Origin: an uncultured Chlorobiaceae bacterium
GTDB taxonomy: Bacteria > Bacteroidota > Chlorobiia > Chlorobiales > Chlorobiaceae
Length of the DNA: 64,000 nt
NCBI GenBank assembly: GCA_903895195.1
Contig: CAITSZ010000027.1
Span: 62,001-126,000 of the forward strand
Direction of reading: 5' to 3'
The notes beneath the pieces were generated by a model. It saw only the letters and a list, made by a program, of their open reading frames with translations, did not search any database and was not told the origin of the DNA. This document shows, one piece after another, positions 8,972 through 17,078 of the stretch. Each line of letters starts with the position of its first letter. Within the stretch, counting starts at the first letter, position 1. Made by a program: the position numbers and the translations under genes.

Positions 8972-10294
8972 TTATGCGGCAATCTTGACAGCAGTGATTT
9001 CGCCACCAGCCATATCGATCGCAACTGACTCCCCTTCCTTTACCTCTCCGGAAAGAATGAGCTCAGAAAGCTTGTTTGTTATTTTACGCTGCATTACCCG
9101 TTTAAGGGGGCGGGCTCCAAAGGCAGGATCAAAACCGGCATCAGAGAGCCATGCAATGGCAGCCTCAGAAATTGTAAGGCTGATGCGCTGGCGCATTGCA
9201 GCAGCCTTGATGTGTTCGAACTGGATCAGTACAATTTTTTTAAGGTCTTGCCTTGTCAGCGGAGTGAAAAGGATGACTTCGTCAATTCTGTTGAGAAACT
9301 CAGGTCGAACCTGCTGCTTCAAAAGTTGAAAAAGTTTTTCCTGAAGACCGGAAAGCAGGTTCTCCCTGTTCATCCCATCCATTTTTTCCATTTCAGATTG
9401 AATGAGCTGAGCGCCGATGTTGCTGGTCATGATGATGATGGTATTCTTGAAGTTCACCGTACGGCCTTTGCTGTCGGTCAGGCGGCCGTCATCAAGTATC
9501 TGCAAAAGAATATTGAAGACATCGGGGTGGGCTTTTTCAATTTCATCGAGCAATACGACAGAAAAAGGTTTACGCCGTACTGCTTCGGTAAGCTGTCCAC
9601 CCTCTTCATAGCCGACATAGCCGGGAGGTGCACCTACCAGCCGGCTGACATTGTGCGCTTCCATGTATTCGCTCATGTCGATGCGGATCATGGCCTCTTC
9701 GTCATCAAAAAGGTAGTCCGCCAGCGTGCGGGCCAGCTCGGTTTTCCCAACGCCGGTCGGGCCAAGAAAAATAAACGATCCTATCGGCCGTTTTTCATCG
9801 CCCATGCCTGCCCGTGATCGCTTGACAGCTTCACTAACGGCGGTTACAGCCTCTTCCTGCCCTATCACGCGCTTATGCAGTTCATCCTCAATAAGCAGAA
9901 GTTTCTGACGTTCTGACTGAAGCATCTTGCTGAGAGGTATGCCGGTCCATTTAGAGACGATATCAGCAATGTCCTCTGCATCGATCTCTTCTTTCATGAT
10001 TAAATCGCCTGAAGCTTTTTTCTCCTCAATTTTCAGGCGGTTTTCTTCAAGTTCGCGTTCAATTGCTACAGTTTTTCCGTAACGGATTTCAGCTACTTTT
10101 CCATAATCACCCTGTCGTTCAAACTCTTCAGCCTGCACCCGAAGTTCTTCAATCTGTGATTTGAGAGTGCGTGAAGATTGAATCAGCTGTTTTTCGCTAT
10201 CCCATTTTGCTTTGATTACAGTCTGTTCTTCGACAAGATTTGCAAGCTGTTTTTCTATCTCATCCAACCGATGTTTCGTGTCAGCGGTGCTCAT
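8972..10294 (-). CDS. clpB: C-terminal half of ClpB disaggregase as a separate protein (partial coiled-coil domain plus second AAA+ module)
   Basis: A 440-residue protein that corresponds only to the C-terminal half of ClpB, usually about 860 residues. Residues 1-100 match the later part of the coiled-coil middle domain; then follow Walker A GPTGVGKT (178-185), pore loop GYVGYEEGG (225-233), Walker B VVLLDE (246-251), sensor MTSNIGA and the D2-small domain with GARPLKR. The N-terminal domain and first AAA+ ring are absent, and the upstream DNA belongs to the divergent kdsA promoter region, so they are not next door. The reading frame is intact with no sign of decay. I recall that ClpB of Chlorobaculum tepidum is also annotated as two short proteins, so this is probably a lineage split rather than a pseudogene. 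Confidence 0.88.
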
Positions 10295-10414: not shown

Positions 10415-11245
10415 GTGCAAAAGTTCTCAATCGCTTCACTCTCAGTTCCTGACGACAACAGCCCGCTTTTTATTGCCGGACCCTGTGTGATTGAAAGCAG
10501 GGCTATGGCTATAGAGACGGCGGAAGAGCTTCAGCGCATAAGCCGCAGTGAAGGAATCCGATTTATTTTCAAGGGCTCCTACCGCAAAGCCAACCGTACT
10601 TCAGCATCTTCATTTACCGGTATAGGGGACATAGAGGCTCTTGAGGTACTTTCGGAGATTCATGAGACCTATGGTATGCCGGTTATTACCGATGTACATG
10701 AAACAAAGGATGTAACTCTTGCTGCCCGTTATGTTGATGTACTGCAGATACCGGCATTTCTCTGTCGTCAGACGGAGCTTCTCGTTGCTGCCGGGGAGAG
10801 CGGTCTTGCCGTCAACATCAAGAAAGGTCAGTTTATGGCTCCTGAAGATATGGCGCTTGCAGCTGACAAGGTTGCTGCGACAGGTAACAAGCGGATTATG
10901 CTGACAGAAAGGGGCTCAAGCTTCGGCTACCACAATCTTGTTGTTGATTTCAGAGGGTTTGCTAAAATGGCAGAATCAGGATATCCTGTTCTTTATGATG
11001 CAACGCACAGTCTTCAGCTTCCGGGCGCGGGCAATGGCGTTTCCGGAGGTGAGCGACAGTATGTAATGCCTCTGGCCAGGGCGGCGGTTGCGGCAGGCGT
11101 GAATGGTTTGTTTTTTGAGATCCATCCTGATCCATCTAAAGCCCTCTCCGATGCGGCCACTCAGGTAGCTCTCGCTGATTTCGGGTTAATTGTCAAACAA
11201 CTGCTCCACCTTTACCGGTGTGTGCAGACTCTTCATTCATTATAA
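10415..11245 (+). CDS. kdsA: 3-deoxy-8-phosphooctulonate (KDO-8-P) synthase
   Basis: A 276-residue enzyme condensing arabinose-5-phosphate with phosphoenolpyruvate to KDO-8-phosphate for lipopolysaccharide core. [33 protein letters not shown] and [10 protein letters not shown] are all characteristic. The start is a GTG at 10415. The 120 bases upstream are shared with divergent clpB. The next gene starts within 40 bases and resembles KdsC, the phosphatase of the following pathway step. Confidence 0.94.
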
Positions 11246-11281
11246 ACAAGTACTCTATTGGCCGGTTTTCAATATTTTGGA

Positions 11282-11833
11282 ATGGAGCCTTCGCAGGCAG
11301 ATCCCTCTTCACGCATAGAACAGGCGCTTAAAGAAGTCAGGGCGCTTATTTTTCCGGTTGATGGCGTGCTCAATGGCGGCAGGATTACCTTTGACGGCAC
11401 AGGGACGGAAATGTGTTCGATCTCTGTCAGGGACGCCGTGGCCATAAGGGAGGCATGTAAACAGGGGTTGCGTATCGCCGTGGTCTCCCATAGGGATGCT
11501 GAAGCCTACCGACCCCTGCTTGAAGAGCTTGGTGTTCAGGATCTCTACCTCGGTGCGGGTAATCTCGTTGAAGCCTATGACGCGTTCCGGAATCTTCATG
11601 ACTTTTCAGACAACGATTGCGCTTATATCGGCGACGATATCGGCGATATTGCGATACTTGAAAAAGCAGGCCTGCCCGTTACTCCTATTGACGGAGCTGA
11701 TTATCTCAGAAACCGTGTCGCTTATATTGCGGGGTATGAAGGAGGCAAGGGGTGCGTGAGGGAAGTTGTCGAGATGATTCTTACGCATCAGGATAAATGG
11801 CCATACATAGAGCGTCCAGACCCTGAGGAATAA
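11282..11833 (+). CDS. KdsC-like HAD-superfamily protein lacking the catalytic nucleophile
   Basis: A 183-residue protein of the KdsC/YrbI HAD family, placed directly after kdsA. KdsC normally removes phosphate from KDO-8-phosphate. Motif I should read DxDG, but here it is FPVDGVL: the nucleophile position is Pro25 while the second Asp (27) is kept. Motif II (VVSHR) and the metal-binding IGDDIGD are present; the usual motif III lysine is not obvious in YLGAGNLVEAYD. It therefore looks like a family member that cannot form the phospho-aspartate intermediate, perhaps a regulatory or structural relative. The ATG at 11282 is preferred over the TTG at 11258. Confidence 0.8.
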   Translation: MEPSQADPSSRIEQALKEVRALIFPVDGVLNGGRITFDGTGTEMCSISVRDAVAIREACKQGLRIAVVSHRDAEAYRPLLEELGVQDLYLGAGNLVEAYDAFRNLHDFSDNDCAYIGDDIGDIAILEKAGLPVTPIDGADYLRNRVAYIAGYEGGKGCVREVVEMILTHQDKWPYIERPDPEE

Positions 11834-11855: not shown

Positions 11856-13337
11856 TTAATACTCTTCCGGAATAAACGCCGGAAGAAGGAGAGGGTTCAG
11901 GAGCTCCGCTGTTTCTGCAAGTGAAAGCATACCGACAATATTAGTGCCGTGGTTCGGTTCAACATGTACATCCCCCCTGTACTCAGTATCATTCTCAAGC
12001 GCTTTTTCAAGTGCCTCTATTTTGCCGCGAAGACTGTAGGCTGCTGATTGTGGTGTTGAGCAGGATACAGGAGGATTCTCCTGGCCGTGCAGAAAATAGC
12101 CTTCTGGAAGTTGTTCGCTTTGCGGATAATCATGCCAGTGGGTGATGGAAGCTCCATACCGGGAAAGGTGTAAGGGGAAGCCGGCTTCAGGCCGAATTCT
12201 CATCAGTATACTTGCCGTCAAGGCATTACCCAGTGCATGTGCCAGAATTGTCAAGGTATCGAAGGATGGTTTGGCACTATTGTCGGATAAGCATCCTTCA
12301 GGGGTTTTAAGGTATATTCTCCCTCGATTCTTGCCCTGAATAAGCCCGATTTCAACAAGATCTTTTTTCGGGTCAAGACTGTTTTTTTTGCACCCTGATC
12401 TTGTCGTGATGACACTGATGTCCGGCACGTGAACGAGAAAAGTTTTCTCCTGCACTCTAACCTCTACCACTCTCTGTATCTGCTTATGGTCATCCGTAAT
12501 CGGGTTATTACTGCCGGAACAGAGTGCTGGCTCTACCGAAACCGGAAGCTGGCGTGCAAAGAATCCATAGCTCATGCCACTTCGCTGGTCGAGATATCGG
12601 GCAACAATGCGTTTGTAAAAATCGCTGCGGTAGTGAAGCCCGGCTGTTGATGTATGCGTTAAAAGAGAGGAATTATTGCTCCACAGGGCGCTGCACCGCA
12701 GGAAATCATTGGCAACAGCTTCAAATTCCGGGGTTCCGGTCTGAAGTTTACCATGTTCTATATCCAGGTCTTCAGCTCTTGGCGGGACCACCTGTGCCGT
12801 AAGTTTAGGCACCAGTGTGGAAAAGACTTGCTCTCTTGAAGGATAGGGCGTGTTGAACGTTACGACACCGCCATTCATTGTGCAGATTGTCCATGAATGG
12901 TCTGTAACAAATATAAGAATATGGACCATGTCGCGGGCGAGCCTGCCGACAATGGCGTCAAGGCGCTGCTGAGGCAGGGCGTTGGTGGTTATGGGCGCGG
13001 GCTCATCGTAAATTCCGACAATGATATTGTTATAGAGCGTTGCGACCCGGTTGATGGCAAGCAGGTTATCAGGAAAATAACCCGGAGCGAAAATAACTGT
13101 TCCCTGAGTAAATCGTCCGTCGTTTCCGGATGCCTCTTTTTCTGAAAGAACGGTTATGTCGAGTGATTGCATGGCATTGATGAGGGCATTGCAAAACCGC
13201 TCAAGTCGAATCGATAAAACGGGGGCGGGGTAGAGTGCCGGTTTGAGCCTTTTGCACATTTCATCGATGCTCAGAGGAGTATCAAGAGGAATGCCAAGCA
13301 GTTTGTGGAGCGAGTCCGTAGAGAGAGGGTTACTCAT
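11856..13337 (-). CDS. Protein of unknown function (493 residues)
   Basis: I do not recognise this protein. It is 493 residues long with no signal peptide, membrane segment, Walker motif or CxxC pair. It appears globular and mixed alpha/beta; residues ~350-430 contain several His (HALGNAL, ITHWHDYP), and the C-terminus has a short acidic helix before HVEPNHGTNIVG. It begins 45 bases after the nadK stop and is the last gene of the ruvX-pyrE-tyrA-nadK series on the minus strand, so it is probably co-transcribed with biosynthetic genes. Codon use looks like its neighbours. Plausibly a lineage-specific cytoplasmic protein. Confidence 0.75.
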   Translation of the reverse strand: MSNPLSTDSLHKLLGIPLDTPLSIDEMCKRLKPALYPAPVLSIRLERFCNALINAMQSLDITVLSEKEASGNDGRFTQGTVIFAPGYFPDNLLAINRVATLYNNIIVGIYDEPAPITTNALPQQRLDAIVGRLARDMVHILIFVTDHSWTICTMNGGVVTFNTPYPSREQVFSTLVPKLTAQVVPPRAEDLDIEHGKLQTGTPEFEAVANDFLRCSALWSNNSSLLTHTSTAGLHYRSDFYKRIVARYLDQRSGMSYGFFARQLPVSVEPALCSGSNNPITDDHKQIQRVVEVRVQEKTFLVHVPDISVITTRSGCKKNSLDPKKDLVEIGLIQGKNRGRIYLKTPEGCLSDNSAKPSFDTLTILAHALGNALTASILMRIRPEAGFPLHLSRYGASITHWHDYPQSEQLPEGYFLHGQENPPVSCSTPQSAAYSLRGKIEALEKALENDTEYRGDVHVEPNHGTNIVGMLSLAETAELLNPLLLPAFIPEEY

Positions 13338-16457: not shown

Positions 16458-17078
16458 ATGGGCGCATGGTCGGTATTACTGATGACAAGTCTGATGCTTG
16501 CAGGCTGTTCGGTGCTAGGAAAACGTACGGCAAATGAACCGCTATTTAAGGTACTCAAAGAGGATGGAGATATTGAAATCAGGCAATATGGGGAGATGAT
16601 CGTTGCCGAAACAGTTGTGGAAGGGTCATACGGACAAACAAGCGGGGCAGCGTTCAGCCGCCTTGCCGGATATATTTTCGGCAAGAACCGGGCAAAGCAG
16701 AAAATTGCCATGACTGCTCCGGTGCTGCAGGAAGCGGTCAGTGAAAAAATATCGATGACAGCCCCTGTTATGCAGGAAAAAAAGGGCAATGCCTGGGTAA
16801 TGTCGTTTGTGATGCCGGAAGGGTCTACGCTTGAAGCGCTTCCAGTACCGCTTGACCCGGCAGTGAAACAGCGGGTCATTCCGGGAAAGAAGGTAGGTGT
16901 GATCCGTTATTCAGGCCTTCATTCTGAAAATAACCTGCGGAATTATGCTGAGAAACTGACCGTTTGGATTGAGAAGCAAGGGAGCAGGGTGCTCTCCGGG
17001 CCACGTGCAGCAAGCTACGACCCTCCCTGGACCATTCCTTTTTTGCGCCGCAACGAGGTGCATATCGATATTGAGTAA
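16458..17078 (+). CDS. SOUL/HBP-family haem-binding lipoprotein
   Basis: A 206-residue protein with a short hydrophobic leader and a lipobox (LMLAGC, Cys17), followed by a SOUL domain covering most of the chain. The internal near-repeat [10 protein letters not shown] and [10 protein letters not shown], then [17 protein letters not shown], is the family signature. SOUL proteins bind haem or related tetrapyrroles; here the lipoprotein signal places it in the envelope. GGAG precedes the ATG by about 7 bases. It stands alone upstream of a small membrane protein. The exact ligand is unknown; a link to (bacterio)chlorophyll or haem handling is only inference. Confidence 0.88.

Follow-up and report, generated by a model that had tools for sequence, protein, structure and literature searches.

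A KdsC-like protein encoded next to kdsA has lost its nucleophilic aspartate across Chlorobiales and is very likely a conserved pseudoenzyme

The window (the whole 64,000-nucleotide stretch of DNA that was analysed, from an uncultured Chlorobiaceae bacterium) contained kdsA and, directly downstream of it on the same strand, a gene for a KdsC-like protein, termed here pseudo-kdsC, an arrangement already given in a preliminary description of the locus. Residue numbers follow the 183-aa reading of the protein, which begins at an internal ATG at 11282, unless stated otherwise. The features of the locus were as follows.

10415-11245, + strand: kdsA, Kdo-8-phosphate synthase; its stop lies 12 nt before the pseudo-kdsC start
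11258-11833, + strand: pseudo-kdsC; begins with TTG and encodes a 191-aa protein of the KdsC fold that lacks both the nucleophilic Asp and the Lys of motif III
11258-11299, + strand: N-terminal tail MAGFQYFGMEPSQA, residues 1-14 of the 191; conserved, pLDDT below 50 in the model
11354-11356, + strand: first position of motif I, CCG, Pro25 (residue 33 of the 191), replacing the nucleophilic Asp
11360-11362, + strand: second Asp of motif I, D27, retained
11564-11566, + strand: motif III position, CTC, Leu95, replacing Lys
11630-11650, + strand: motif IV, GDDIGDI, kept; includes D118

The ATG at 11282 had earlier been taken as the start of the gene. The TTG at 11258, which gives 191 aa, is the most likely start, because the eight codons preceding the ATG (MAGFQYFG) are conserved. 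Among 83 Chlorobiaceae copies, 79 started with TTG and three with GTG, and the copy L047 (on the same contig as L275) started with a GTG one codon later. The gap between the kdsA stop and the pseudo-kdsC start was measured at 82 Chlorobiaceae loci and came to 11–15 nt at 77; the start was non-ATG at every locus. Of the other five loci, L043 and L049 had gaps of −4 nt and L068 had a gap of 4 nt, and kdsA was read in two frames in L044 (5044-5861, − strand) and L026 (631-1459, + strand). The genomes with a two-frame kdsA were G016, a single-contig assembly, and, near the 3' end of kdsA, G082.

Upstream of kdsA, the 440-aa gene at 8972-10294 (− strand) corresponded to the C-terminal half of ClpB only (AAA_2 and D2-small domains); its 438-aa counterpart adjoined pseudo-kdsC in L077, where kdsA was missing. 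The 493-aa protein encoded convergently with pseudo-kdsC (11856-13337, − strand) had no Pfam match at 1e-5, and positions 16458-17078 (+ strand) encoded a protein of the SOUL haem-binding family whose start, as judged by eye, resembles that of a lipoprotein.

In HAD motif chemistry, the first Asp of motif I is the nucleophile and the second is the acid/base. The translation of 11282-11833 contained LIFPVDGVLNGG, with Pro at residue 25, the position of the KdsC nucleophilic Asp in alignments to 4hgn (Kdo-8-phosphate phosphatase of Bacteroides thetaiotaomicron) and 2p9j, which confirmed the PVDG in place of DVDG first noticed at motif I. Also borne out were the missing motif III Lys, which is replaced by Leu since GAGNLVEAY aligns with GSAVKIHDY of 4hgn, and the retained metal-binding GDDxxD, present as GDDIGD. 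The motif II Ser was present as Ser69. The AlphaFold2 model had the KdsC fold with a mean pLDDT of 86.6, and Foldseek searches against the PDB gave TM-scores of 0.82 by query and 0.87 by target for 2r8z (E. coli YrbI), and of 0.79 and 0.90, respectively, for 4hgn. All 50 PDB chains among the matches listed were KdsC/YrbI or uncharacterised relatives, with E. coli YrbI and 4hgn first.

The window protein matched TIGR01670 (KdsC/YrbI) at 118.8–119 bits, above the cut-off of 106.95, and annotation by this model would therefore name it Kdo-8-phosphate phosphatase. It scored 117.7 bits against the NCBIfam KdsC equivalog NF007019 (cut-off 208); missing this cut-off says little by itself, because the one Asp-bearing orthologue, L281, fell short as well (138 bits). 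The cut-offs of NF058599 (KDN-9-phosphate phosphatase; 78.5 bits against 180) and TIGR02726 (phenylphosphate carboxylase delta subunit; 83 bits against 281.95) were not reached. The protein thus resembled active KdsC/YrbI proteins (4hgn, 2r8z) in fold and TIGR01670 score, length, D27, the motif II Ser, the acidic pair of motif IV, the C-terminal GG-G-RE region and the place after kdsA, but differed from them in lacking the motif I nucleophile and the motif III Lys, in carrying an additional conserved tail and in scoring below NF007019.

The protein was searched for in 98 genomes of the order, and all 95 orthologues found were read (that of G081 from a piece on another contig). The nucleophilic Asp was missing in 94 of them and kept only in G088; the residue at the first position of motif I was Pro in 68 copies, Ser in 17, Asn in four, Thr in three, and Ala, Val and Asp in one each. 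Every copy retained both D27 and D118 (95/95), and motif II had Ser (80), Ala (14) or Thr (1). All 12 copies from outside Chlorobiaceae kept the motif III Lys, whereas each of the 83 from Chlorobiaceae had Leu (48), Arg (16), Pro (11), Phe (6) or Val (2) at that position. Genus g1 had Pro at motif I in 63/63 copies. The 20 copies of genus g2 (Chlorobaculum where named) had Ser (14), Pro (5) or Ala (1); their motif IV Gly had changed to Ala in 19 and their motif II Ser to Ala in 14. R50, D51, G154, G155, G157 and R160 were kept in 80/80 Asp-less rows. This distribution suggests an order of decay in which the nucleophile would have been lost first, then motif III in Chlorobiaceae, with further losses in g2.

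A separate collection of named genomes, in which no title contained Prosthecochloris, lacked the Asp at 79 of 80 loci, and the Asp-less isolates included Chlorobium ferrooxidans DSM 13031 and Chlorobaculum thiosulfatiphilum DSM 249. By comparison, the Asp was kept in all 19 phylum outgroup homologues and in all 28 of the paralogues read (see below), so the loss is more than chance. The orthologue comparison called for in the preliminary description thus showed a change common to the order, and a single-strain mutation was ruled out by the same 94 orthologues and 79 named loci. A sequencing or assembly error as the source of the change is refuted, since independent isolates and bins, the named loci among them, have the same loss. 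Neither pseudo-kdsC nor kdsA was found in three genomes, G006 (99% complete) and G056 and G062 (80–81%); because the two genes were missing together, these cases are apparent assembly gaps or joint losses.

In a midpoint-rooted tree of 83 KdsC-family rows, the orthologues formed one clade (100/98), which joined seven homologues from the phylum (100/98). We take these seven to be the KdsC of Bacteroidia, because 4hgn was also the best PDB match by sequence. The paralogue was placed in another clade, together with a G148 homologue that also adjoins a neuB. The Asp-bearing copy of G088 is L281, from Chlorobiales bacterium ES-bin-17, a metagenome bin in 420 contigs. An rpoB tree did not resolve the position of G088 and was compatible with the other families forming one clade (p-AU 0.554). 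An orthologue tree with the motif I residue masked was compatible with a single Asp-less clade (p-AU 0.162), yet the tree itself showed none. A single loss of the Asp is possible, and several losses would be likewise compatible with these trees.

The dN/dS of pseudo-kdsC was 0.024–0.208 in 22 of 23 close orthologue pairs (those computable), while for kdsA 21 pairs drawn from these genomes gave 0.036–0.122. A 45-row alignment covering three of the four families had 28 invariant columns. A drifting pseudogene was ruled out by these dN/dS values. The conserved N-terminal end was found in all 94 Asp-less copies: the first eight residues ended in FG in 83/83 Chlorobiaceae copies, and the 11 Asp-less copies of other families all began with a comparable short segment, such as MEFFGIP, MDLMGIP or LEIFGV. 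The Asp-bearing G088 copy had no tail, with a stop one codon ahead of the domain. Among the 28 paralogues, IFG occurred once (L085), in the open frame just ahead of the probable start, and among the 19 phylum outgroups MTIFGM occurred once (L175), further upstream; we take both matches to be chance. Residues 1-14 of the tail had pLDDT values below 50 and were predicted to be disordered, and since this end is conserved all the same, it suggests a putative docking peptide.

Only two KdsC-family matches were present in the window's genome, pseudo-kdsC and a paralogue at G000:C3:24824-25285. The search for a second kdsC with intact motifs, which the preliminary description had recommended, was therefore positive, and the gene adjoined neuB. 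The paralogue was found in 93 of the 98 genomes, a 94th match, in G088, being that genome's own Asp-bearing orthologue. In all 28 paralogue loci read, it had DNDG, TGE, a downstream Lys, the motif III Lys and GDD, and it adjoined neuB. In L092 (5820-7349, − strand), NeuB and the intact paralogue were paired with no NeuA gene adjoining, and the gene next to the pair is presumably htpG; a cytidylyltransferase-family gene was located elsewhere (L114:1060-1764). The paralogue of the window's genome was closest to NF058599 (146.5 bits, below the cut-off of 180). TGE and the downstream Lys are the positions changed to Ala in chains 4hgq and 4hgr, and we take them to be specificity residues of KDN-9-phosphate phosphatase. 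The first duty of the paralogue thus looks like a nonulosonate 9-phosphate, in which case either the paralogue would also take Kdo-8-phosphate or another phosphatase would do so.

A missing Kdo pathway was ruled out for the window's genome, in which KdsA was accompanied by matches to KdsD (328.5 bits), KdsB (192 bits) and a WaaA-type transferase (131.6 bits); with these genes present, Kdo should be made and used. The proposal in the preliminary description that another gene carries out the Kdo-8-phosphate phosphatase step is plausible. E. coli kdsC is dispensable. G088, which kept the Asp, had neither the paralogue, nor neuB, nor the tail. Four genomes that were 77–91% complete (G018, G071, G081 and G084) had no paralogue yet were Asp-less. 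G071 and G081 had no neuB and G084 had a distant one only (38%); in G018 the neuB piece began at the end of a contig, which probably explains why the paralogue is absent from that assembly. The pattern, which amounts to one contrast (G088, a 420-contig bin) and four non-supporting genomes, suggests that the presence of the paralogue allowed the Asp to be lost, and that the paralogue may be a partner too.

Together, the loss of a catalytic residue common to the clade and the purifying selection on the whole protein make it very likely that the gene encodes a conserved pseudoenzyme. Of the two readings offered earlier, a pseudoenzyme or an unusual chemistry, the former is favoured because any of P, S, T, N, A or V may stand in for the Asp, none of the 83 Chlorobiaceae copies retains the motif III Lys, and most g2 copies have additionally lost motif II or the motif IV Gly. 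Being strongly preserved in green sulfur bacteria and their relatives despite the loss of the catalytic residue, this member of a sugar pathway that serves the outer membrane is probably a helper rather than an enzyme. On balance we favour a pseudophosphatase of ancient origin that has been retained in the Kdo pathway as a partner subunit without catalysis of its own. KdsC-type proteins function as tetramers, with each active site capped by an adjacent subunit. A KdsC-type phosphatase would have lost its nucleophile within Chlorobiales, so that the aspartyl-phosphate intermediate should not form. The protein would have retained the KdsC fold and would sit in a mixed oligomer of the Kdo pathway, with the flexible, FG-containing N-terminal tail docking on the partner. 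The intact NeuB-linked paralogue would hydrolyse, and the dead subunit would stabilise it or lend it specificity for Kdo-8-phosphate. A mixed oligomer is not self-evident, since the two KdsC-family proteins are only ~25% identical. The invariant D27 and D118 would be in keeping with a retained binding site for a ligand or metal and count against the preferred reading. As the partner, the paralogue is a tentative choice that stands slightly ahead of KdsA, itself a tentative one, at nearly even odds.

KdsA could instead be the partner of pseudo-KdsC, which would then be its regulatory or scaffold subunit and would set flux, the dead pocket perhaps serving as a sensor of Kdo-8-phosphate or Kdo; we consider this possible though doubtful. 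The short gap after kdsA at most Chlorobiaceae loci, with a non-ATG start at all, speaks for it, as does the adjacency of kdsA to six of the 12 copies from other families. The pocket may persist, since D27, D118 and the six residues conserved in the Asp-less rows are kept. Across 21 Chlorobiaceae genomes, with neuB as the sole control besides the two candidates, the partial rate correlation of pseudo-KdsC was 0.60 with KdsA (neuB and paralogue removed) and 0.25 with the paralogue. Little weight was given to this difference because the paralogue itself evolves in step with KdsA (correlation of 0.63 given neuB), and neighbouring genes can have like rates for other reasons. The linkage was also broken in family f4: in genus g8 no kdsA separates the clpB half from pseudo-kdsC, and in genus g7 pseudo-kdsC lies among other genes, yet both genera have retained the Asp-less protein with its tail. 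The kdsA that they use is a deeply divergent one at another place in the genome (branch 1.01, 100/100). This second, deep-branching kdsA type, which does not adjoin kdsC, was found at L147-L152 (G090, G092, G091, G094, G088 and G093), that is, in two f4 genera and G088. Adjacency to kdsA needs no physical contact either, since intact KdsC-family genes adjoin kdsA in six of the 19 phylum outgroup loci. The idea that the linkage was simply inherited from an intact pair was dropped, as the six linked outgroup loci and the orthologues fall on opposite sides of the tree, and none of the seven outgroups closest to the orthologues had kdsA within its 6.5–7 kb.

The protein may still be an enzyme that hydrolyses a substrate or catalyses some other reaction by means of D27 and D118 in place of the nucleophilic Asp; these two residues are kept in all copies and motif II is Ser or Thr in 81/95, but the motif II and motif IV substitutions of g2 and the loss of motif III in Chlorobiaceae run the other way, and no single replacement of the Asp is fixed over the order, though Pro is constant in g1, so we regard such chemistry as unlikely. 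Slightly less likely still is a relic on its way to loss, replaced by the paralogue and persisting through its linkage to kdsA. The stepwise decay of the active site, from the other families to Chlorobiaceae and then to g2, would agree with a relic, but the low dN/dS, the conserved tail and the 28 invariant columns do not; moreover, the gene is retained even where kdsA has left, and the three genomes without pseudo-kdsC are also without kdsA.

Several known systems offer relatives or precedents for comparison. PDB 3ewi, which we take to be the C-domain of vertebrate CMP-sialic acid synthetase, was among the PDB sequence matches of the window protein. This C-domain is described as homologous to sugar phosphatases but devoid of phosphatase activity and as a platform on which oligomers assemble, its biological role being called unclear (PMC8636478). 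It belongs to the same phosphatase family and to a related sugar pathway, but it is fused to a cytidylyltransferase, whereas pseudo-KdsC is a separate protein whose gene adjoins that of a synthase. Inactive myotubularins hetero-oligomerise with active ones (PMC3688503). The phenylphosphate carboxylase delta subunit is a related protein that is named as a subunit of another enzyme; pseudo-KdsC is no member of that family by score, and no carboxylase context was seen. KDN-9-phosphate phosphatase (3e81, 4hgq, 4hgr) is of the same family and closest to the paralogue, which shares TGE and the downstream Lys, but it differs from pseudo-KdsC, which scores low against its model and has no nucleophile. 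In the open-licence literature, as covered by titles and abstract openings, no catalytically dead KdsC was found for Chlorobiota. A free-standing, order-wide dead KdsC in bacteria was not found in this literature either and is probably new; an inactive family homologue as an oligomerisation platform and inactive phosphatases pairing with active ones were already known.

The annotation of pseudo-kdsC as a Kdo-8-phosphate phosphatase is very probably wrong, and the step from Kdo-8-phosphate to Kdo is then without an assured enzyme, though other pathway genes are present in the window's genome. A more specific and rather improbable proposal is that the Kdo-8-phosphate phosphatase is itself a mixed oligomer, in which catalysis would fall to the NeuB-linked paralogue, and the dead protein, whose gene mostly adjoins kdsA, would contribute a Kdo-specific cap and docking tail. 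If true, a pathway enzyme would be split into catalytic and specificity subunits, and one phosphatase would serve the nonulosonate and Kdo pathways. Pseudo-KdsC would offer a bacterial pseudophosphatase whose decay can be traced over four families, with one lineage still carrying the Asp, and thereby a test of the transition from enzyme to subunit.
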